DNA from: Paraburkholderia sp. BL10I2N1
GTDB taxonomy: Bacteria; Pseudomonadota; Gammaproteobacteria; Burkholderiales; Burkholderiaceae
Assembly (NCBI RefSeq): GCF_004361815.1
Contig: NZ_SNWA01000001.1
Coordinates: 3,410,001 to 3,474,000 of the forward strand
DNA length: 64,000 nt
Direction: 5' to 3'
The notes under the pieces: generated by a model
The model's database searches: none
Seen by the model: the letters and a program-made list of their open reading frames with translations, nothing else
Told to the model about the DNA's origin: nothing
Made by a program: the position numbers and the translations under genes
Shown here: in pieces, positions 53,061 to 64,000 of the stretch
Layout of the letters: every line of letters starts with the position of its first letter
Position numbering within the stretch: the first letter of the stretch is position 1

Positions 53061-54983
53061 ATGGATATCTACAGCAGTTTCGCGACCCGCTTCGAGAAAA
53101 CCCGGGAGGATGAACTCTCGCTCGAGGAGTATCTCGCGCTCTGCAAAGACAATCCCGCCGCGTACGCCACTGCGGGCGAACGCATGTTGGCAGCAATCGG
53201 CGAACCTGAACAGATCGACACCCGCAACGATCCGCGCTCGTCGCGTATCTTCGCGAACAAGGTCATCAAGGTATACCCCGCGTTCCGTGAGTTCTACGGA
53301 ATGGAAGAAGTGATCGAGCATGTGGTCTCTTACTTCCGGCATGCGGCTCAGGGGCTCGAAGAAAAGAAACAGATTCTGTATCTTCTGGGGCCGGTCGGTG
53401 GCGGCAAGTCGTCGATAGCGGAACGTCTCAAGCAGCTGGCCGAACGTGTGCCGTTCTACGCGATCAAGGGGTCGCCGGTGAACGAGTCGCCGCTCGGGTT
53501 ATTCGACTACGACGAGGACGGTCCCATCCTCGAAGAACAATACGGCATTCCGCGCCGCTATCTGAAGACCATCCTGAGTCCATGGGCGGTCAAGCGGCTG
53601 CATGAATATAACGGCGACATCCGCAAGTTCCGCGTGGTGCGTCGGTATCCGTCGATCCTCCGGCAGATTGGCATTGCGAAAACCGAGCCCGGCGACGAAA
53701 ACAATCAGGACATTTCATCGCTGGTCGGCAAGGTCGACATCCGCAAGCTCGAACAATATGCGCAGGACGATGCCGATGCATACAGCTATTCCGGCGGCCT
53801 GTGCCTTGCGAACCAGGGCCTTCTTGAATTCGTCGAAATGTTCAAGGCGCCGATCAAGGTCCTGCACCCTTTACTGACGGCGACCCAGGAAGGCAACTTC
53901 AAGGGCACGGAAGGCTTCGGTGCGATCCCGTTCGACGGCATCATCCTCGCTCACTCGAACGAGTCGGAGTGGAAGGCGTTCCGCAACAACCGTAACAACG
54001 AAGCCTTGCTCGACCGGATCTTCGTCGTGAAGGTGCCTTACTGCCTGCGCTACTCGGAGGAAATGAAGATCTACGAAAAGCTGATCCGCAATTCTTCGCT
54101 CGCGAGCGCGGTCTGTTCGCCGGGCACGCTCAAGATGATGTCGCAGTTCTCGGTGCTGACGCGCCTGCACGAGCCGGAGAATTCGAGTCTCTTTTCGAAG
54201 ATGCAGGTGTATGACGGCGAAAACCTCAAGGACACCGATCCAAAGGCGAAGTCGTATCAGGAGTACCGCGATTTCGCGGGCGTCGACGAGGGCATGACGG
54301 GCGTGTCGACACGCTTCGCGTTCAAGATCATGTCGCGTGTGTTTAACTTCGATTCGACCGAAATCGCCGCGAACCCGGTGCACCTGATGTACGTGCTCGA
54401 ACAACAGATCGAGCGCGAGCAGTTCCCACCGGAAACCGAACAGAAGTATCTGTCGTTCGTGAAGGACGTGCTGGCCTCGCGCTACGCGGAATTCATCGGC
54501 AAGGAAATTCAGACTGCCTATCTGGAGTCGTATTCCGAGTACGGGCAGAACATCTTCGATCGCTATGTGACGTACGCCGACTTCTGGATTCAGGATCAGG
54601 AGTTCCGCGACCACGACACCGGCGAGAGCTTCGACCGCGCGGCGCTGAACGCGGAACTGGAGAAAATCGAAAAACCTGCGGGCATCAGCAACCCGAAGGA
54701 TTTCCGCAACGAGATCGTCAATTTCGTGTTGCGCGCGCGTGCTGCGAATGCCGGCAAGAACCCGGCGTGGGTCAGTTACGAGAAGCTGCGCGTCGTGATC
54801 GAAAAGAAGATGTTCTCGAATACGGAAGAACTTTTGCCTGTCATTTCGTTCAATGCGAAAGGATCGGCGGAGGAGCAGCGCAAGCACGAGGACTTCGTCA
54901 ACCGAATGGTCGCCAAGGGATACACGCCGAAGCAGGTGCGGCTCCTTTGCGACTGGTATCTACGCGTACGCAAGTCATCATGA
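53061..54983 (+). CDS. prkA: PrkA/YeaG-family serine protein kinase
   Basis: Cytoplasmic protein of 640 residues combining an AAA-type ATPase domain (Walker A LLGPVGGGKSSIAERL) with a C-terminal kinase-like domain. YeaG in E. coli is induced by nitrogen starvation and stationary phase and partners with YeaH. GGAGG stands before the ATG. It heads a three-gene set with yeaH and spoVR, a widespread stress-linked arrangement; the gap to yeaH is 126 bases and contains small hairpins. Confidence 0.92.
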   Translation: MDIYSSFATRFEKTREDELSLEEYLALCKDNPAAYATAGERMLAAIGEPEQIDTRNDPRSSRIFANKVIKVYPAFREFYGMEEVIEHVVSYFRHAAQGLEEKKQILYLLGPVGGGKSSIAERLKQLAERVPFYAIKGSPVNESPLGLFDYDEDGPILEEQYGIPRRYLKTILSPWAVKRLHEYNGDIRKFRVVRRYPSILRQIGIAKTEPGDENNQDISSLVGKVDIRKLEQYAQDDADAYSYSGGLCLANQGLLEFVEMFKAPIKVLHPLLTATQEGNFKGTEGFGAIPFDGIILAHSNESEWKAFRNNRNNEALLDRIFVVKVPYCLRYSEEMKIYEKLIRNSSLASAVCSPGTLKMMSQFSVLTRLHEPENSSLFSKMQVYDGENLKDTDPKAKSYQEYRDFAGVDEGMTGVSTRFAFKIMSRVFNFDSTEIAANPVHLMYVLEQQIEREQFPPETEQKYLSFVKDVLASRYAEFIGKEIQTAYLESYSEYGQNIFDRYVTYADFWIQDQEFRDHDTGESFDRAALNAELEKIEKPAGISNPKDFRNEIVNFVLRARAANAGKNPAWVSYEKLRVVIEKKMFSNTEELLPVISFNAKGSAEEQRKHEDFVNRMVAKGYTPKQVRLLCDWYLRVRKSS

Positions 54984-55109
54984 GGCAGGAGACGTACCGC
55001 CCGCGTGGGGCAACTGCGCGGGCAACTTGCGAGGCGCAAGCCGCATGGACATGAGGTTGCATGCGCAACTTGCGTCTCGCGCTCCAGAAATTAGAGCGGG
55101 AGACCGGAT

Positions 55110-56381
55110 GTGCTTCACCAGATCATCGACCGCAGGCTGGCAGGCAAGAACAAGAGCATTGCAAACCGCGAACGCTTTCTGCGCCGCGTAAAGAACTATA
55201 TTCGCCGCGCCGTATCGGAAGCGGTGCGCGATCGCAGCATCAAGGATATCCAGAACAACCAGAGCATCACGATTCCGCGCAAGGACATCGCGGAACCGTC
55301 GTTCCGGCACGGCCCGGGCGGCAAGCGTGAGATGGTGCACCCTGGCAACTCGGACTACATCCGCGGCGACAAGATCCCGCGTCCCGGCGGCGGAGGCGGC
55401 GGTGGCGGCGGGAACAGCGCCAGCAACGAAGGCGAGGGCCAGGACGACTTCGTCTTCGAGCTGAGCCGCGAAGAATTCATGCAGTACTTCTTCGACGACC
55501 TCGAACTGCCGCGCCTCGTCAAGACCCATCTGCTTGCCGTGCCAACCTGGAAGAGCATCCGCGCGGGCTGGGCAGCGGAAGGCACGCCGAACAACATCGA
55601 CGTTGTGCGCTCATTGCGTAGCGCACTTGGCCGGCGCATCGCGCTCGGCTCACCGCTCGTGAACGAACTGCACGAGCTTGAAAAACAGCTCGAAGTGATG
55701 AAGGCCGACCCGGCCGACCGTCGCGAAGAGATCAAGGTGCTCGAAGAGGAAATCCATCATTTGCGCGGGCGCATCTGGCGCATCCCCTTCATCGATCCAT
55801 TCGACCTGCGTTACGTGAACCGCGTGAAGCAGCCGCAACCGTCCAGTCAGGCCGTGATGTTCTGCCTGATGGATGTGTCGGGCTCGATGGACGAGCAGCG
55901 CAAGGATCTCGCGAAGCGCTTCTTCATCCTGCTGTACCTGTTCCTGAAGCGCAACTATGAGAAGATCGAGGTGGTGTTCATCCGCCATCACACGCGTGCC
56001 GAGGAGGTCGATGAAGACACGTTCTTCCACTCGACGGAAAGCGGCGGCACGGTGGTGTCGAGCGCGCTCGAACTGATGACGAAGGTAATGGAGGAGCGGT
56101 ATTCGCCGACTGAATGGAACATTTACGGTGCACAGGCCTCGGACGGCGACAACTGGACGGACGATTCGCCGAAGTGCCGCAAGATGCTGTCAGATGACAT
56201 TCTGTCGAAGGTGCGCTATTTTGCGTACATTCAGGTGACGCCTGAAGAGCAGAACCTGTGGCTCGAATACGCGCAACTTGCGCTGACCGCGCCACATATG
56301 GCGATGAAGAAAGTAGAAACAGCGGCGGACATCTATCCGGTCTTCCGCGAACTGTTTGAAAAGCAGGTGGCGTCGTCATGA
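55110..56381 (+). CDS. yeaH: YeaH/YhbH family protein (DUF444, VWA-like)
   Basis: A 423-residue protein with GTG start preceded by GGGAG. The C-terminal half has a von Willebrand A-like fold with the metal-site motif DVSGSMDEQRKD. The middle contains a Gly-rich stretch (PGGGGGGGGGNSAS). It probably works with PrkA. Its stop overlaps the spoVR start by four bases. Confidence 0.92.
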   Translation: MLHQIIDRRLAGKNKSIANRERFLRRVKNYIRRAVSEAVRDRSIKDIQNNQSITIPRKDIAEPSFRHGPGGKREMVHPGNSDYIRGDKIPRPGGGGGGGGGNSASNEGEGQDDFVFELSREEFMQYFFDDLELPRLVKTHLLAVPTWKSIRAGWAAEGTPNNIDVVRSLRSALGRRIALGSPLVNELHELEKQLEVMKADPADRREEIKVLEEEIHHLRGRIWRIPFIDPFDLRYVNRVKQPQPSSQAVMFCLMDVSGSMDEQRKDLAKRFFILLYLFLKRNYEKIEVVFIRHHTRAEEVDEDTFFHSTESGGTVVSSALELMTKVMEERYSPTEWNIYGAQASDGDNWTDDSPKCRKMLSDDILSKVRYFAYIQVTPEEQNLWLEYAQLALTAPHMAMKKVETAADIYPVFRELFEKQVASS

Positions 56382-58078
56382 GCACCAAACATCTGCACAA
56401 TGAAGCGCGCGGCTACCAACCGGAACGCAGAAAGGGCGCGAAGGAGAAGGACGCCGGAAGCACCGGGCCATCCGGATCCATTGGGTCCAGTGAAAAGGCA
56501 GCCGCAGCACGAGGGCAAACCGAAGTGCCCATAACGGGGCAAAGGGAAGTCCGTATGAACGTTGCCGATAGACGGCCTCTGCCGTGCCCGTCCGACTGGA
56601 CCTTCGAACTGATCGAAGAATACGACACACACATATCCCATGTTGCAGAGCAATATGGGCTGGATGTCTATCCGATCCAGCTCGAGCTCATCAGTGCTGA
56701 GCAGATGATGGACGCGTATGCGTCCGTCGGCATGCCGGTCAATTACCGGCACTGGTCGTTCGGCAAGCATTTTCTCGCTACCGAAAAAAGCTATCGTCGC
56801 GGACAGATGGGGCTCGCATACGAGATCGTCATCAATTCGAACCCCTGCATCGCGTATCTGATGGAAGAGAACACGATGACGATGCAGGCGCTCGTCATTG
56901 CGCATGCCGCGTATGGGCATAACTCGTTCTTCAAGGGCAACTATCTGTTCAAGCTGTGGACGGATGCCCACGCGATCATCGACTACCTCGTCTACGCGAA
57001 GAACTACATTGCCGAGTGCGAAGAGCGGTTTGGTCTTGACCGGGTGGAGGAACTGCTCGATTCGTGCCATGCCTTGATGAACTACGGCGTGGACCGCTAC
57101 AAGCGGCCGCAGAAGCTGTCGCTCGCGAAGGAATCGGCTGCGCGCCGGGAGCGCGAGGCGTACCTGCAGTCACAAGTGAATGAACTGTGGCGCACGTTGC
57201 CGAACAAGAGGGAAGTGCTGCCGGAGGAACCCGAGGACCGGTATCCGCCTGAGCCGCAGGAGAACCTGCTGTATTTTGCGGAGAAGAATTCGCCGTTGCT
57301 GGAGCCCTGGGAGCGCGAGGTGATCCGCATCGTGCGCAAGGTAGGGCAGTATTTTTATCCGCAGCGGCAGACGCAGGTGATGAATGAAGGGTGGGCGACG
57401 TTCTGGCACTACACGTTGCTGAACACGCTCTACAACCAGGGCAAGCTTGAAGACGGCTTCATGATGGAGTTTCTCCATTCGCACAGTAACGTCGTCTATC
57501 AGCCGCCGGTGACGAAACCTTACTACAGCGGTATCAATCCGTATGCGCTCGGTTTTTCGATGATGAGCGACATCCGGCGGATCTGCGAAACGCCAACGGA
57601 AGAGGACCGGCAGTGGTTCCCGGAACTGGCGGGGAGCCCGTGGCTGGGCGCGTTGCACTATGCAATGCGCAATTTCAAGGACGAATCGTTTGTGGCGCAG
57701 TATCTGTCGCCTCATCTGATTCGTGAGATGCGGCTCTTTTCAGTCCTCGATGATGATATGCGGGACGCGCTTGAAGTTTCCGCCATTCATGACGACAGTG
57801 GCTATCGGTACGTGCGTCAGGCGCTTTCGCGGCAGTACGATATGCATCATCGGGAGCCGAACATTCAGGTGTGGTCGGTCAATACGCGAGGTGACCGGAG
57901 TCTTACGCTCCGGCATTTCATGAGTGATAACCGGCATCTCTCCGGTGACAGTGAAGAGGTTTTGAAGCATATGGCCAGACTCTGGCAGTTCGATGTTTAT
58001 CTCGAGAGTGTGGATGAGAATGGGACTGTCAGGAAGAGGTATGAGTGTCGGTATGTGCCGCCGATTGTTCGGGTTTGA
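56378..58078 (+). CDS. spoVR: SpoVR family protein
   Basis: A 566-residue protein of unknown biochemical role that accompanies prkA and yeaH. Family segments: SDWTFELIEEYDTHISHVAE, MNEGWATFWHYTLLNTLYNQ. The ATG that overlaps the yeaH stop adds about 60 residues of Gly/Ser/Lys-rich sequence before the conserved part; an internal ATG (MNVADRRPLP) preceded by AAGGGAAG would give the usual length of just over 500. Codons near the 3' end become rich in T and G at the third position. The stop is followed by the gene-end repeat also seen after potI. Confidence 0.9.
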   Translation: MSTKHLHNEARGYQPERRKGAKEKDAGSTGPSGSIGSSEKAAAARGQTEVPITGQREVRMNVADRRPLPCPSDWTFELIEEYDTHISHVAEQYGLDVYPIQLELISAEQMMDAYASVGMPVNYRHWSFGKHFLATEKSYRRGQMGLAYEIVINSNPCIAYLMEENTMTMQALVIAHAAYGHNSFFKGNYLFKLWTDAHAIIDYLVYAKNYIAECEERFGLDRVEELLDSCHALMNYGVDRYKRPQKLSLAKESAARREREAYLQSQVNELWRTLPNKREVLPEEPEDRYPPEPQENLLYFAEKNSPLLEPWEREVIRIVRKVGQYFYPQRQTQVMNEGWATFWHYTLLNTLYNQGKLEDGFMMEFLHSHSNVVYQPPVTKPYYSGINPYALGFSMMSDIRRICETPTEEDRQWFPELAGSPWLGALHYAMRNFKDESFVAQYLSPHLIREMRLFSVLDDDMRDALEVSAIHDDSGYRYVRQALSRQYDMHHREPNIQVWSVNTRGDRSLTLRHFMSDNRHLSGDSEEVLKHMARLWQFDVYLESVDENGTVRKRYECRYVPPIVRV

Positions 58079-58157: not shown

Positions 58158-59659
58158 CTCAGGATTGCCCACATCTTTTCGCTGAATCGCGCTTGTAAAC
58201 TGAGTCAGGCGATGTTAACTTGCGTGTATTGCCTGTAAAACGACACGCCGTTGCCTTCCATAGACGATAACGCTGACTGGGCCGATACCGAATTCGGTGC
58301 GGCCAATCTGGGCGATGCCCGTTTGACGAGCCGACTGGTCGCGCTGGCGCGACGGTTGGCAAGTAGTCCTGATTGCCCATTCCCGCGCTCGCTCAATGCC
58401 GCCGAGCTCAAGGCAGCCTATCGTTTTTTCGACAACGAACAGGTCGATACGGATGGCGTACTTGCTCCGCACATTGAACAGACCCTGCGGCGCATGACCC
58501 GCATACCGGTCGTGCTTGCGGTGCAGGACACGACCGAATTCAACCTGAGCCACCTCAAAGCGACCGAAGGACTGGGCTACGGCACGGGCAACGCTTCGCG
58601 CGGCTTCATGCTGCACAGCCTGCTGGCCGTCACGCCAGAAGGTTTGCCGCTGGGTGTGCTGGGTATGAAGACCTGGGTGCGACCCGACGCGCAATTAGGC
58701 AAGAAGCAGCAGAGAAAGCACCTTCCGGTTGCAGACAAGGAGAGCGTCAAGTGGCTCGAAGGCATCGCGCATCTGGGCGCCCTCAAGGCACGCTGTCCCG
58801 AGACCCTGGTGATTGGAATCGGTGACCGGGAAAGCGACCTCTACGAAGTGTTCACGGCCGAGCGTCCGCGAGGCGTTGAGTGGCTGATCCGAGCCAAGTC
58901 GGATCGCAAGACCGTCAACCCCGAGCACTCCCTCTGGGAGGCCGTTGCCGCGACCGCCCCGCTGGGCGAAACGGAGTTACAGGTCCCGCCAGTGGGTAAT
59001 CAACCCAGGCGCGTCGCCCGTCTGACACTGCGGTGTACGCCAGTGCGACTGAGGCCTCCGCAACGGCCTTCATCCCGGCTCGCCGAGGTCACAGTCTATG
59101 CGATCCACGCCCTTGAAACCACGCCGCCGGCGGACATCGAGCCGCTCGAATGGATGCTGCTCAGTTCCGTGCCGACGATCACGTTTGAGGACACCCTTGA
59201 ACGACTCGGCTGGTATGCCCGCCGATGGACGATTGAGTCGTGGCACCGCGTACTGAAGAGTGGCTGCAGCATTGAAAAGCGTCAGTTCGGCAACCTTGAG
59301 CGGTTCGTACGGTCGACCGCGCTATTTGCGGTGATCAGCTGGCGCATCATGTACGCGACGTTGCTGGGTCGTGCCGATCCGGACCTGTCGTGCGAAGTCC
59401 TTCTGCAACCAGACGAATGGCGCGCGCTTCATAGCCGCACCCATCGCACGTCAAAACCACCGACTGCAATACCTTCACTCGGTGAGGTCGTGCTGTGGAT
59501 TGCAAAACTCGGTGGGTACCTGAACCGCAAGCATGACCACCCACCCGGTCCCACCGTCATGTGGCGTGGATTTCTCGTCCTGCACGAGATCACCGAGATG
59601 TATCGCATCTTCAGGCAAGACGAATAAGTTGGCTCACGAAAAATGTGGGTGATCCTGAG
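58158..59659 (+). mobile_element. Intact IS4-family insertion sequence, 1,502 bases
   Basis: Bounded by imperfect inverted repeats: left CTCAGGATTGCCCACAT, right (complement) CTCAGGATCACCCACAT, 15 of 17 matching. A perfect nine-base target duplication flanks it, so the insertion is recent and the element is complete. Joining the flanks rebuilds CGCCCCTGTCCGGGGCG, a hairpin, so the element landed in the loop and right arm of a palindromic repeat downstream of spoVR. It contains one transposase gene. Confidence 0.92.
58251..59627 (+). CDS. IS4-family transposase (IS50-like group)
   Basis: DDE transposase of 458 residues. The first Asp is in LAVQDTTEFNL, the second in IGDRESDLYEVF, and the Y-(2)-R-(3)-E-(6)-K signature of the IS4 family is complete in YARRWTIESWHRVLK. 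The start is a TTG (PSIDDNADWADTEFG follows); a start further upstream in the left end cannot be excluded. The frame is intact, so the element may be active. Confidence 0.9.
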   Translation: MPSIDDNADWADTEFGAANLGDARLTSRLVALARRLASSPDCPFPRSLNAAELKAAYRFFDNEQVDTDGVLAPHIEQTLRRMTRIPVVLAVQDTTEFNLSHLKATEGLGYGTGNASRGFMLHSLLAVTPEGLPLGVLGMKTWVRPDAQLGKKQQRKHLPVADKESVKWLEGIAHLGALKARCPETLVIGIGDRESDLYEVFTAERPRGVEWLIRAKSDRKTVNPEHSLWEAVAATAPLGETELQVPPVGNQPRRVARLTLRCTPVRLRPPQRPSSRLAEVTVYAIHALETTPPADIEPLEWMLLSSVPTITFEDTLERLGWYARRWTIESWHRVLKSGCSIEKRQFGNLERFVRSTALFAVISWRIMYATLLGRADPDLSCEVLLQPDEWRALHSRTHRTSKPPTAIPSLGEVVLWIAKLGGYLNRKHDHPPGPTVMWRGFLVLHEITEMYRIFRQDE

Positions 59660-59785: not shown

Positions 59786-61609
59786 CTAGAACTGCGCAAT
59801 GGCCTGGAAGCCGAGGGTCACACGCGCGGTCGGAAAGTTCGCTGGTTTGTAGACAGGCGTCCCGGCGAACAGGTCATAGGCGACTCCTGCAAAGCGCGCC
59901 GGCACACTGCCGCGAATCCCGATCACCGCGCCGGCCAGTTGCGTGCCGGCGAGGAAAGCTGCGTTCGGGCCGAACACGCGGCCGTAGTCAATGCCTGCGT
60001 ACACCGACTGTCCCGTCGAGCCGACCGGCAACTGAAACTCGTTGCGCCAGTAGAAGCCGCGCTCCGCCGCGAGCATCGTCTCGCCATCGAAGCCGCGCAC
60101 CGTGTAGCGGCTACCGATCGCCAGGTCATCAATGTAATTGAGCGTGGCGTTGGTGAACTGGCCGTGAACCGTAGTGACGTACCGCAGCGGCTGGCTCGCG
60201 ATCTGGAACGGCACCGACAGGTTCGCGTCGAGCACGGCCATGCGGAAGCGGTACGTCGGGCCGTTGAGGTAATAGTCCGGTGTTGCACCGAGTCCACCGA
60301 CGCCCTGGCGGTAGGCCAGGCCGCCGTCGAACTGCGATGCGCCGAAGTAATGACGATCGGTCAGTCCAGCCTCGATGACGGTGTTGTTGCGACGCTGCTG
60401 CGGAATCTCGGTATCTTCAATGAAGCTGTCACCGAAGCGCTTCGTCAGCCGGAACTGCACGCCGAGCACATCGTTCTGGCTGCGGCGAATCACGCGCTGC
60501 AGCTTGAAGTCGACCGTCTGCGCATGGCCGCTGGAGACGAACGTCTCGTTTACGCCGGCGATCTGCTGGTAGTAGGTGTTCGTGTTGGCCGATAGCGTGC
60601 CCGTCCAGTAGCCCCATGGAATCGAATAAGAGCCGTTCCAGCCGTGCGAGCCGAGGCGCTTGTCGCCGAATTCAAGGTCCTGGCTGACGCCGACGTTGAA
60701 GATGTCGTTCAGGCCCAGCGGGTTGTCGATACCGAAGCTCAGGTTGCCCTGCAGCTTGCCGGTGGCCCGCGTGCCGGAGTTGTCGACCGAGGCGACGACG
60801 GTCCGAGGTTTCGCGCGCTTCACGTCGAGCACCACGTCGCTTTCGCCTGGTACGTCGGTCGGCACGATCTGCATCGACACGTCCTGACTGCTGACACGCT
60901 TCATCTGTTCGAGTCCCTGTTCGAGATCGCGCAGGTTGAGCATGTCGCCACCACGGGCAGGGAAGGCGGACTTCCATGTGCCGCGAATTGTCGAACCATC
61001 AGCGGGATCGGCGAAGCGCAGGTCCCGAATGACGCCAGGCACCAGCGCGATCTTCAGCGTACCCGTTGACAGGTCCTGCTCAGGCAGAAGCACGCGTGTC
61101 GTGATGTAGCCCCGGCTCAGTATGGTCTGCTGCAGCCCCTTGACGATCACGTCGAGCCCCTGTTTGCCAACGCACGCCCCGGAGGAAGTCCCCTTGGGGG
61201 ACTGGCCCGCGTAGTGATCGAGCCACTCGCGGGCAAAGGCGAACCGGTCCTGCGGCAGCGCGGACGCACCCTGCGCACGCACCGCATCAGGCAACGTCGC
61301 GGGCACATCCAGCGCGAACGATTCGATACGAAAGCACGGCGTTTCGGCGGGCAGTTCGGGATGCGTCCCATCCTGCGGCGCCATGGAGCGCACGCGGGGC
61401 GCGTTCACCGTATTCTCGCGTTCCTGCGCATTGCGCTGCTGCTGCACCTGCTGGTTCTGCTCGGCGTTGGCGCGTGCCGCTGCTGCTGTGTCCGCGGGAG
61501 TCGGCGATTGCTGCGCAAGTGCAGTCGAATTGCCGAGTGCGAAAAGCGCGGCAGTCAACGGAAGAATGGACAGCGTCCTGCTTTCCTGGATTCGTTGTTG
61601 CTTTGTCAT
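59786..61609 (-). CDS. Two-partner secretion outer-membrane transporter (TpsB, ShlB/FhaC/HecB family)
   Basis: Outer-membrane barrel of 607 residues that exports a large TpsA exoprotein. Order: signal peptide ending about residue 33, Gln/Ala/Asn-rich linker, POTRA-type domain (ETPCFRIESFALDVPATLPD), second POTRA region, then a barrel with the conserved loop motif VRGFDGETMLAAERGFYWRN. The start ATG overlaps the upstream SMR-like gene's stop (ATGA). No tpsA gene is present; the insertion sequence and spoVR lie downstream. The exoprotein is either encoded elsewhere or on the unseen side. Confidence 0.88.
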   Translation of the reverse strand: MTKQQRIQESRTLSILPLTAALFALGNSTALAQQSPTPADTAAAARANAEQNQQVQQQRNAQERENTVNAPRVRSMAPQDGTHPELPAETPCFRIESFALDVPATLPDAVRAQGASALPQDRFAFAREWLDHYAGQSPKGTSSGACVGKQGLDVIVKGLQQTILSRGYITTRVLLPEQDLSTGTLKIALVPGVIRDLRFADPADGSTIRGTWKSAFPARGGDMLNLRDLEQGLEQMKRVSSQDVSMQIVPTDVPGESDVVLDVKRAKPRTVVASVDNSGTRATGKLQGNLSFGIDNPLGLNDIFNVGVSQDLEFGDKRLGSHGWNGSYSIPWGYWTGTLSANTNTYYQQIAGVNETFVSSGHAQTVDFKLQRVIRRSQNDVLGVQFRLTKRFGDSFIEDTEIPQQRRNNTVIEAGLTDRHYFGASQFDGGLAYRQGVGGLGATPDYYLNGPTYRFRMAVLDANLSVPFQIASQPLRYVTTVHGQFTNATLNYIDDLAIGSRYTVRGFDGETMLAAERGFYWRNEFQLPVGSTGQSVYAGIDYGRVFGPNAAFLAGTQLAGAVIGIRGSVPARFAGVAYDLFAGTPVYKPANFPTARVTLGFQAIAQF

Positions 61610-61944
61610 ACCTGCCTTGTAACCAACCACACACCACCAAGAATCACCGCTGCGCCGACCAACTGAGTCGGCTTCAAGACGTGCTCATGCAGCACCGTAA
61701 ACGTCAGTACGACGAGGATCGAGACAGCCACCATCAGCGGATACGCCACGCCCAGATTGGCCTTGCGCAACGCGAGCGCGTAGAGCACGAAGCCGACTCC
61801 ATAGGAGCCCAGCGCCGCAGCCCGGAACAGAATTGGCATCCATTCACCTGCTGATGCTGTGGCGGCCCGAAGCGCAGCAAGCCGCAAGAGAACGCTCGCC
61901 AGGCCGCTCAGTGTTCCGCTGGCAATCAACGTAATGAAGGACAT
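61606..61944 (-). CDS. SMR/EamA-like small membrane transporter (ArnE-like)
   Basis: A 112-residue, four-span membrane protein (GTLSGLASVLLRLAALRAAT; ANLGVAYPLMVAVSILVVLT; LVGAAVILGGVWLV). It resembles small multidrug resistance proteins and the ArnE/ArnF half-flippases for undecaprenyl-linked sugars. The conserved membrane Glu of EmrE in TM1 is not at the usual place (SGLASVLLRLA), which favours a flippase-like role. Start shares a base with the stop of the polytopic protein gene (TGATG) and its own stop overlaps tpsB, so translation is coupled on both sides. Confidence 0.75.
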   Translation of the reverse strand: MSFITLIASGTLSGLASVLLRLAALRAATASAGEWMPILFRAAALGSYGVGFVLYALALRKANLGVAYPLMVAVSILVVLTFTVLHEHVLKPTQLVGAAVILGGVWLVTRQV

Positions 61945-63110
61945 CAGGCATCCACACTCGAATTCACTCGTACCGCCGAATGTTTCCCCTCTGTTTCGGC
62001 GTGTGAAAAAATCTGTCCGAACTGGCGCGCGCCATTGAGCGCGATCAACACGATCGCCGGAAAGACAACGGAGAAATTGCGGGTCTCGTCGCGATAGCCA
62101 AAGAACGCAAACAGCACCAGCACCGGCAAGAAAGCCGCGAAGAAGTACCTCTGATAGCGCGCGCCGGATTCTCGCCATGCATGACGGAAGAACACGATCA
62201 GCGGCACGAGCATTAGCGGGTTCTGCAGGCTCGGTGTGAATACACCCTTCGCAATCAGGTTGTAAAAGCCAAAGTACGACTTCGGATTGATCCAGAAGCG
62301 CAGGTTATCCAGCACATGGAACTCGACGAGGCCGCCGGCGTTGTGCTCGTAGCCGCTCATGATGATGTGCCGGCTCAACGCACAGCCGACCAGCTGGATC
62401 ACGAGCCAGCCAATGCGCTTCGACACTGCAACGTCACGCCCGTGCAGGAAGAAGAGGGCCAGCGGCACAAGAAAGAACGTCTCCTTGTTGAACGAGAACA
62501 ACGCGACGAAGATCGTGCAGGCGATCATCCAGCGCTTGAGCAGGAAGTAGCATGCGCCGAATACGCCCAGCAGCTCGATGAAGTCATAGTAGTACCCGCC
62601 TTGCTGAAAAGTGAGCGGGTAGATAAGGCTGAAGCCGGCGACGAAGCCAACCGCCTGCCCGAACGTGAGGCCACGCATCCTTGCGAGCTTGTACACGAAC
62701 CACAATGCCATCACCGTCGACAGGATAACGACGAGATAGGCCAGGTGATAGGTGATGGCGACCACCGGCGTCCAGAATTCATCCGCAACGCTATGGAAAT
62801 AGCTGTTTCGTAGCGAGTCGTAGCGCGAGATCGATTTAAAGAGTTTGTTCTGTACGGCAGGACTCAGCTGCTCCGCCGCCCACTTCGCAGCTTTCGGAAA
62901 CGACGAACGGTAAACGTACGGCTTTGGTGCCGCACCGTCCATCATGCCGACAAGGCTGTAGCTGTGCGCGTAGTCGGTTTTCTGGTCGTCGCGGAAGCCC
63001 CATTTCAACAGCACACTGTTGGTGATGTTTCCGGCGCACACGAGCAGCAGGACGAATACGATCGAGAACCGGCAGAACGCCAGCATCCTGTTTCTGTTTT
63101 CTAATTTCAT
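61944..63110 (-). CDS. Polytopic membrane protein of unknown function (GT-C-like layout)
   Basis: A 388-residue inner-membrane protein with about nine to ten spans. After the first span comes a periplasmic loop of about 90 residues (YAHSYSLVGMMDGAAPKPYV and following) with aromatic and charged residues, then clustered spans. The large first loop and many spans resemble GT-C glycosyltransferases that use polyprenyl-linked sugars, but I cannot identify a catalytic motif with certainty. Its neighbours (prenyltransferase, flippase-like protein) fit that role. Confidence 0.65.
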   Translation of the reverse strand: MKLENRNRMLAFCRFSIVFVLLLVCAGNITNSVLLKWGFRDDQKTDYAHSYSLVGMMDGAAPKPYVYRSSFPKAAKWAAEQLSPAVQNKLFKSISRYDSLRNSYFHSVADEFWTPVVAITYHLAYLVVILSTVMALWFVYKLARMRGLTFGQAVGFVAGFSLIYPLTFQQGGYYYDFIELLGVFGACYFLLKRWMIACTIFVALFSFNKETFFLVPLALFFLHGRDVAVSKRIGWLVIQLVGCALSRHIIMSGYEHNAGGLVEFHVLDNLRFWINPKSYFGFYNLIAKGVFTPSLQNPLMLVPLIVFFRHAWRESGARYQRYFFAAFLPVLVLFAFFGYRDETRNFSVVFPAIVLIALNGARQFGQIFSHAETEGKHSAVRVNSSVDA

Positions 63111-63126
63111 TTTTTGCCGAAGTCTG

Positions 63127-64000
63127 TCAAGACTGTACGAAGTGGGCCGTCATCATGGTGGCGACCATGATCAGAATGGTAAGAAGGCTGCCGCGATCTT
63201 CGATGAGATGAACTATCGGATCGTCATGCATTGCGCCGCGCACGGTTTTGATCCACAGGCGTGCGAACAGGGAAATCAGCCCGATCGCGACAAACCACAG
63301 CAATGCAGGGATCGCATACCGGCCGGCCGTCTCCGGTGCGTTGATGAAAAGGCCGAAGACAATTACCGCCGCGAGTGACGCGCCGATGCCAAGCGGCCAC
63401 AGCACTTCAAGATCCGCGACCCGGTAATCGCGCCCCACCGTGACGGCGTCGGCACTCATGCGCAAGGACACCAGTTCGGCGCAGCGCTTGACGAGTGCGA
63501 GACTCAGGAACGTGAAGACCGAGAAGGCCAGCAGCCAGTGACTCGTGCTGATATTTACCGCTACCGATCCCGCGAAGATTCTCAGCGTGTATAGCAGCGA
63601 GAGCGTAATGACATCGACCATCACGCGCGTTTTTAGAAACAGGCTGTAGGCGGTGGTCAAGATCAGGTACAGCAAGAGCATCGCCGCAAACGCTGCCGAT
63701 GTTGAGAACGCCAGTGCGAGCGACGCGGTGAGTAGCGCCACGGCGCACAGGACGCCTTTCGATATCGACAATGCTCCGCTCGCGAATGGGCGCTGGCTCT
63801 TGCGGGGATGCCGTCGGTCGCTGTCCAGATCCCACAGATCGTTGGCGATGTAGGTCGCCGACGCACCCAACGACATCGAGACGAACGCCATCGCGAGCGT
63901 GACCAGCTTGTCGGTGTCGAAGAAGGAAAATGCGGTCAGCAATGGGACGAAGAGCAGCAGATTCTTGAGCCACTGATGAACGCGCAGCGCCTTTAGCCAG
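63127..64000 (-). CDS. UbiA-family prenyltransferase, DPPR-synthase-like (5' end outside window)
   Basis: Inner-membrane prenyltransferase. The frame is open to the right edge, where it encodes LRVHQWLKNLLLFVPLLTAF, a family N-terminal signature, so the start lies outside. The prenyl-diphosphate/metal motif NDLWDLDSDRRHP (N-D-x2-D-x3-D-x2-HP) is intact. The second Asp-rich site and about eight to nine spans follow. This subfamily attaches phosphoribose to decaprenyl phosphate or acts on related polyprenyls; in Burkholderia such proteins can carry an N-terminal HAD domain, which cannot be checked here. First visible gene of the operon ending in tpsB. Confidence 0.8.
   Translation of the reverse strand, partial: WLKALRVHQWLKNLLLFVPLLTAFSFFDTDKLVTLAMAFVSMSLGASATYIANDLWDLDSDRRHPRKSQRPFASGALSISKGVLCAVALLTASLALAFSTSAAFAAMLLLYLILTTAYSLFLKTRVMVDVITLSLLYTLRIFAGSVAVNISTSHWLLAFSVFTFLSLALVKRCAELVSLRMSADAVTVGRDYRVADLEVLWPLGIGASLAAVIVFGLFINAPETAGRYAIPALLWFVAIGLISLFARLWIKTVRGAMHDDPIVHLIEDRGSLLTILIMVATMMTAHFVQS

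Follow-up and report, generated by a model that had tools for sequence, protein, structure and literature searches.

Three-component systems that transfer pentofuranose outside the cytoplasm have been described at O-antigen loci, as with ORF15, ORF14 and ORF12 of Citrobacter youngae (Kelly et al. 2024, PMC11127046). Burkholderia-type contact-dependent inhibition (CDI) operons, as far as the accessible parts of two reports describe them, carry bcpI and sometimes bcpO between the A and B genes (PMC3415462, PMC10449530), and the second report mentions truncated bcpB copies behind bcpI. Here we describe a locus of Paraburkholderia sp. BL10I2N1 that begins near the end of the stretch analysed (the window: 64,000 nucleotides, C1:3410001-3474000 of a 9.2 Mb genome in 4 contigs) and runs past it. 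The locus looks like a Burkholderia-type CDI operon in which genes for a HAD-UbiA fusion, a GT-C-like protein and an SMR-type protein are inserted between the immunity position and tpsB. The type of pathway is known, but we found no description of it in such a setting. All genes stand on a single strand, in the order tpsA - small open reading frames (ORFs) - HAD-UbiA - GT-C - SMR - tpsB, and this composition (gene order, a HAD-UbiA that retains the residues probed by mutation in published work, GT-C, SMR, and recurrence at several sites) is as good as certain. Lengths below are in amino acids (aa).

C1:3475178-3483760, minus strand: tpsA, 2860 aa; 1.2 to 9.8 kb beyond the window end
63127..64563, minus strand: HAD-UbiA fusion gene, 478 aa (polyprenyl-phosphate phosphoribosyltransferase plus phosphatase); extends 563 bases beyond the window
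61944..63110, minus strand: gene for a polytopic protein, 388 aa, with a modelled GT-C fold; predicted pentofuranosyltransferase
61606..61944, minus strand: SMR/EamA-type gene, 112 aa; predicted flippase of a lipid-linked sugar, from weak profile matches
59786..61630, minus strand: tpsB, bcpB/cdiB-like outer-membrane transporter with ShlB/POTRA domains, found by an own-genome search with PF03865

The tpsB product matched Pfam ShlB at E 2.1e-96, together with POTRA_3 and POTRA_2, and an earlier note on this DNA, made from the letters of the window, had identified and placed this gene correctly. The same note had seen the genes as translationally coupled. This is correct for the one-base TGATG overlap that joins the 388-aa and SMR genes, and also for the ATGA overlap between the SMR stop and tpsB if tpsB starts at the ATG at 61609 and not at the GTG at 61630 that opens the long ORF. 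Its statement that no tpsA is visible does not extend beyond the window: a tpsA was found past base 64000, where the note had proposed to look, and an orphan tpsB is thereby ruled out.

The 478-aa HAD-UbiA protein matched NCBIfam NF006088 at E 2.2e-180 and the decaprenyl-phosphate phosphoribosyltransferase in PDB entry 8j8j at E 2.4e-27. N241/D242/D245/D249, K359/R360/E363 and D12/D14 were invariant in a ten-sequence HAD-UbiA alignment, and the residues probed by mutation in the published enzyme (PMC11127046) are kept in the window protein. The gene had been read earlier as a UbiA prenyltransferase resembling DPPR synthase, correctly, and the HAD domain suspected past base 64000 was found fused to UbiA in the same protein. 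DprE1/DprE2-like genes, suspected there as well, are not operon members: in the window genome no such epimerase gene was found between the two tps genes, and an FAD_binding_4 and SDR pair lies elsewhere. The three genes probably form a kit that makes, flips and attaches a lipid-linked pentofuranose. By established enzymology, HAD-UbiA would join phosphoribosyl pyrophosphate (PRPP) to polyprenyl phosphate and strip the 5'-phosphate to give polyprenyl-P-ribofuranose, the SMR protein would flip this lipid, and the GT-C protein would move the pentose onto a periplasmic acceptor. Ribofuranose is the default guess, because DprE1/E2 are missing from the operon. The accessible part of one report states that beta-ribofuranose can occur in the O-antigen backbone of B. 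cenocepacia (PMC5462993). This is no evidence for the cassette, since the beta-linked ribofuranose (Ribf) surveyed in the 2024 paper is attributed to PRPP-using enzymes (PMC11127046).

For the SMR protein, the profile scan was done on a longer 190-aa ORF and not on the 112-aa gene product. It gave phn_DUF6 (7.8e-6), EamA (1.2e-5), ArnF (1.5e-5) and ArnE (6e-5), all below curated cut-offs, and the SMR/ArnE-like half-flippase proposed earlier is correct by these weak matches. Orthologues in L038, L039 and L041 are 80-85% identical. An AlphaFold model with structural alignment supports a GT-C fold for the 388-aa protein, with AftA, AftD and EmbC among the aligned structures. The model bears out the GT-C-like polytopic protein named in the earlier note, and a non-GT-C fold was ruled out on the same basis. 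A PDB sequence search with this protein gave no match at E 1, and a profile search gave two, at E 0.18 and 1.4, both to unrelated proteins. In a Pfam scan of 70 family members, the first member was unmatched and PMT_2 was found in 2, with a best E of 0.0087.

Relatives of the 388-aa protein were also observed in other arrangements. A Legionella contig (L104 10001-11065) encodes a GT-C relative, 57% identical, and no other cassette gene was matched within 21 kb. The metagenome ORF P0106 has a tpsA N-terminus fused by deletion to residues 252-374 of the 388-aa protein. In Caballeronia, at L135 7882-10908 (the same place as L101), the 388-aa GT-C gene is directly preceded by a tpsB that one in-frame stop interrupts; HAD-UbiA is absent from L135, and the order of the same neighbours is reversed.

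The genes around the trio give the operon its CDI-like character. TpsA has a two-partner secretion (TPS) domain (PF05860, 2.9e-48), haemagglutinin repeats (PF13332, 1e-46) and ESPR (1.2e-9). An ORF of 87 aa with predicted membrane segments and no Pfam match starts two bases after the tpsA stop; we consider it an immunity-like candidate at the CDI immunity position. In L088, a second small ORF behind tpsA matches Imm41 (E 1.2e-6). A remnant of the tpsB 5' end, 82 aa long, lies directly before HAD-UbiA in the window genome, and L039 has one in the same position. Over residues 18-89 the window remnant shares 64% identity with the complete tpsB (DNA 79.5% over 156 bases). The likeness to bcpAI(O)B, known here from genes, thus covers the order A - I - B, a large TpsA with TPS domain and haemagglutinin repeats, a variable C-terminus, a small immunity-like ORF and truncated bcpB remnants. 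What differs is the sugar cassette of three genes that separates I from B. No ORF in that interval was recognised as a BcpO lipoprotein, and no BcpO model was searched. The C-terminal 200 residues of 11 linked TpsA fell into six clusters, so the cassette tracks no single toxin type, and a role as specific immunity to one toxin is excluded.

As in the published pentofuranose systems (PMC11127046), an N-terminal HAD domain and a UbiA-type polyprenyl phosphoribose synthase share one protein here, and a flippase and a GT-C enzyme are encoded alongside. The flippase is of the SMR/EamA type whereas the prototype has a MATE protein, the 388-aa GT-C protein is too short for an added carbohydrate-binding domain, and the setting is a CDI-like operon rather than an O-antigen locus. 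HMW1ABC is likewise a two-partner exoprotein locus with its own glycosyltransferase. HMW1C is a cytoplasmic GT41 enzyme that uses a nucleotide sugar donor, whereas a lipid-linked donor and a membrane GT-C of another family are predicted here. Among the five large operon proteins, scanned against Pfam and NCBIfam, no HMW1C/GT41-type enzyme was found at E 0.001, which rules out cytoplasmic glycosylation of that type by these proteins. The mycobacterial decaprenyl-P-arabinose pathway (Rv3806c, DprE1/E2, Rv3789, Emb/Aft) is similar in its UbiA-type phosphoribosyltransferase, SMR-type exporter and GT-C enzymes, but in this locus the HAD phosphatase is fused and DprE1/E2 are not in the operon. Class IV CDI gene clusters also encode a modifying enzyme, CdiC; according to the accessible part of that report it is a lysine acyltransferase that acylates a lysine of the CdiA receptor-binding domain, whereas periplasmic sugar transfer is predicted here (PMC8510554). 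The earlier remark that no system of this composition had been described does not stand for the trio, which was already published (PMC11127046), but it stands for the placement: the open-licence literature searched held no description of a pentofuranose cassette within a CDI operon.

The arrangement recurs. A close HAD-UbiA was found in 25 genomes. It is linked in 14, where it lies within a tps locus immediately upstream of tpsB, and unlinked in 10; one genome (G474) falls into neither group, with HAD-UbiA at a contig end. In the window's genus (144 genomes), HAD-UbiA at >=65% identity was found in 8, and in four of these (G000, G073, G120, G017) it lies in a tpsA..tpsB locus along with the 388-aa and SMR genes, so that G073, G017 and G120 share the full order with the window genome. 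In Burkholderia, the genus of G403 (65 genomes), it was found at >=66% in 17, with 10 linked, 6 not, and G474; two more genomes at 57-59% were not counted. Of the 13 genomes of the other genus that were compared and carry both the 388-aa gene and HAD-UbiA, seven show the full order, four lack tps genes, one has a truncated tpsA and a truncated tpsB, and in one the locus is cut by a contig end. G403, where tpsA and tpsB are truncated, is included in the 14, and G482 was judged by match coordinates only; by contig coordinates, G485, G484 and G483 are the same loci as L091, L093 and L095. Only the best candidates per genome (4 to 19) were scored in the HAD-UbiA, tpsB and TpsA-class searches, and these counts are lower bounds.

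The chance of a position within 3 kb upstream of a same-strand tpsB is about 2e-4 to 9e-4 per genome (one to five tpsB). Linked loci occupy at least 7 chromosomal contexts in two genera: flanking genes differ among all four linked loci of the window's genus, and at least 3 further sites are used in Burkholderia, one of them common to G403, G341, G272, G361 and L091. Spacings within the trio are short, and a possible tpsB start lies between 25 bases before and 17 after the SMR stop in 11 of 13 loci with a tpsB match; no start near the SMR stop could be listed for L041 and L122. The linked state changed at least 5 times on a cassette tree of 24 rows. Linkage of trio and tps genes is conserved but not obligatory. 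The link to two-partner secretion pointed out earlier is conserved in 14 of 25 genomes, not in the 10 unlinked ones, and the idea that tpsB is a random neighbour of the trio met a mixed outcome, with an intact trio beside decayed or missing tps genes in L122, L038 and L093. All 25 cassette genomes hold some tpsB match (8 of 8 versus 101 of 144, p 0.05; 17 of 17 versus 46 of 65, p 9e-4), as do the unlinked cassettes alone (4 of 4, p 0.23; 6 of 6, p 0.06), and this co-occurrence with any tpsB is suggestive only. The 388-aa protein itself was found at E 1e-60 in 21 of 398 genomes of the family. At >=53% it was matched in 14 genomes of the window's genus, six of them without a close HAD-UbiA (G036, G070, G097, G112, G003, G131), and G070, G097 and G112 have a HAD-UbiA of 42-44% nearby.

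The linked exoproteins are also alike in their central region. Over residues ~700-1900 of the TpsA of the window genome, identity was 50-89% per 100-residue segment in all 10 other linked TpsA compared. Free TpsA from L179, L186 and L187 gave 20-37% in this region, with one segment at 44-56%, and free TpsA from L184 matched it at 70-87%; L180, L182, L183 and L185 had no usable central region and were left out. A search with the central region gave 45 nearly full-length matches at >=64% in the window's genus and 17 in Burkholderia, with a counted tpsB no more than 15 kb downstream on the same strand in 29 and 14 of these. Cassette-linked TpsA make up 4 of the 45 and 8 of the 17, and all 12 testable linked TpsA are of this class; G403, with its truncated tps genes, is outside the 12. 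Counting by eye gave 127 and 72 tpsB rows in the two genera, each with a match of >=65% identity and a length of >=450 residues. The class adjoins 43 of 198 of them, including all 12 testable linked loci (Fisher 2.8e-9, relatedness ignored); the linked G451 was outside the test, as its central tpsA part lies beyond a contig end. On a tree of 22 central regions (11 linked and 11 free, those at hand and no random draw), the linked state changed at least 4 times. The cassette has thus been gained or lost repeatedly, within one class in all testable loci.

In several genomes the trio stands without intact tps genes. In B. paludis (L093), an intact trio has the neighbours that flank the linked loci at this site, with neither tpsA nor tpsB and with no tps remnant detectable at E 0.001. 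In G403 (L122) the trio is intact and tpsA and tpsB are truncated, and in G083 (L038) a short piece of tpsA (41 residues, 59%, E 6e-8) remains upstream of an intact trio. A tps remnant search at L043, L044, L045, L095 and L130-L133 found none. It is therefore unlikely that TpsA is the sole acceptor. Scans of nine proteins encoded next to unlinked cassettes (two each at L043, L044 and L045; one each at L038, L130 and L131) found no common glycan locus in this small sample. The nine comprised one GT2 glycosyltransferase (L045), an ABC transporter, an SDR protein, an AraC-type regulator, a phosphoesterase, an amidase, an LRR-kinase-like protein, a trypsin-like protein and one unmatched protein.

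The explanation that we favour is that a CDI-like operon (tpsA - immunity-like gene - tpsB) took up a self-contained three-component pentofuranosyl cassette, which would act on the surface glycan of the producer. As a whole it is tentative, not far short of an even chance. Its more specific parts, namely that the acceptor would be the producer's own lipopolysaccharide (LPS) or O antigen, that the operon may mark or remodel the surface met by its own or related TpsA, and that the cassette may be retained like an orphan immunity gene when tps genes decay, are possible but tentative. Our preference for the producer's surface glycan rests on the survival of the trio where tps genes are gone, and on two precedents in the accessible parts of their reports: a Burkholderia mutant in a putative LPS glycosyltransferase is resistant to CdiA, with LPS suggested as receptor (PMC4364669), and core LPS is the receptor of class IV CdiA (PMC8510554). 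The arrangement suggests that a contact weapon carries its own surface-sugar modification. It is rather unlikely that the altered glycan would serve, against the CDI exoprotein that meets it, as a sugar self-mark or as a second layer of self-protection beside the immunity protein, retained as an orphan.

Several observations weigh against this explanation. For 50 of the 62 TpsA regions that match the class, no cassette is linked, and the class thus works in its absence. Unlinked cassettes occur in ten genomes; among these, G083 and G123 have a TpsA of the class elsewhere and eight have no full-length match at >=64% (one of these, G075, has a 45% match over ~710 residues); the cassette therefore also lives outside this class. 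At L050 of G131, the 388-aa gene, SMR and tpsB have all decayed, and what remains of them lies together. The SMR matches stay under curated cut-offs, and Foldseek alone gave a best E of 0.045 for the 388-aa model, which is weak for GT-C. Relatedness was ignored in the genome counts, and part of the linkage pattern is explained by an old joining event, after which the arrangement spread and was lost in places.

A close rival, in itself doubtful, is that TpsA is glycosylated: the GT-C protein would add pentofuranose to the unfolded exoprotein in the periplasm before export by TpsB. Such a step would parallel, in the periplasm, the action of HMW1C and the arabinosylation of pilin by TfpW in Pseudomonas. 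The position of the cassette between tpsA and tpsB, the tpsB starts at -25 to +17 bases from the SMR stop in 11 of 13 loci and the single central class of all 12 testable linked TpsA are consistent with it. So is the precedent of HMW1C, a glycosyltransferase partner of a two-partner exoprotein in the accessible parts of the reports (PMC3983070, PMC2877744). However, the trio is intact without tpsA and tpsB in B. paludis and with truncated tps genes in L122, 10 of 25 cassettes lie away from any counted tpsB even though all 25 genomes have one somewhere, and the 50 class-matching regions without a linked cassette count against this rival also.

Improbable by comparison with the surface-glycan explanation is that the trio is cargo, a roaming O-antigen-type modification cassette caught with no functional connection in a CDI locus, a recombination hot spot where truncated tpsB copies mark exchanges. 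The tpsB 5' remnants directly before HAD-UbiA in the window genome and L039 would fit such a hot spot, as would the tpsB fragments that precede tpsB in the cassette-free loci L186 and L187 and the truncated bcpB at the Burkholderia bcp locus (in the accessible part of PMC10449530). The unlinked cassettes of 10 of 25 genomes and the changes on the cassette tree would fit roaming. Cargo does not readily explain the same internal position and order in at least 7 chromosomal contexts of two genera, the short spacings within the trio, or the restriction to a single TpsA class (12 of 12 testable) when the central-region tree calls for at least 4 gains or losses.

That the mark is arabinose and not ribose, with GT-C using D-arabinofuranose made in trans by a DprE1/E2-like set elsewhere, is equally something we would not expect, given that in the window genome no epimerase gene lies between tpsA and tpsB; a second HAD-UbiA with FAD_binding_4 and SDR neighbours at C1:440673 and the reported donor promiscuity of the published GT-C enzyme for Ribf and xylofuranose (PMC11127046) speak for it, and neighbours at other loci, scanned in part, showed an SDR gene next to the unlinked pair of L044, on the other strand. 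The second HAD-UbiA, 41% identical and followed by the FAD_binding_4 and SDR genes (L051 9668-13149, C1:440668-444149 of the window genome), is a probable DprE1/DprE2-type arabinose set.

The current picture of CDI consists of an exoprotein, its transporter and an immunity protein, and few accessory enzymes have been described. Sugar transfer as a recurrent module of such operons would add either a glycan kin mark or periplasmic glycosylation of two-partner exoproteins, and the pentofuranose systems would gain a second setting outside O-antigen loci. Direct tests are possible, with surface glycan, TpsA and contact inhibition as readouts of loss of the GT-C gene.

Further features of tps loci were observed. 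The window genome has a second tps locus (L005 144-9728, C2:620143-629727) without the sugar cassette, with a tpsB 89-91% identical to the window copy, tpsA in pieces, and mobile-element-like ORFs (by eye) ahead of tpsB. Two lipoprotein-like ORFs follow tpsB in L005, L039 and L041, with a third ORF, GNA1162-like (PF05643), in L005; these are absent behind the window tpsB. In L039 (6727-7119), the immunity-like ORF is followed by a second piece resembling a TpsA C-terminus, as would be left by CDI module turnover. In L003 (18739-19707), a GT2-family glycosyltransferase gene (PF00535) lies upstream of tpsA on the same strand. Just downstream of the window tpsB, between it and a spoVR-like gene, stands one element that flanks the operon and is no member of it:

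58251..59627, plus strand: IS4/Tn5-type transposase (NF033590 5.5e-119, PF14706, PF02281)

Three consecutive genes at window positions 53061-58078, which we take to resemble the prkA / yeaH / spoVR set, precede this element.

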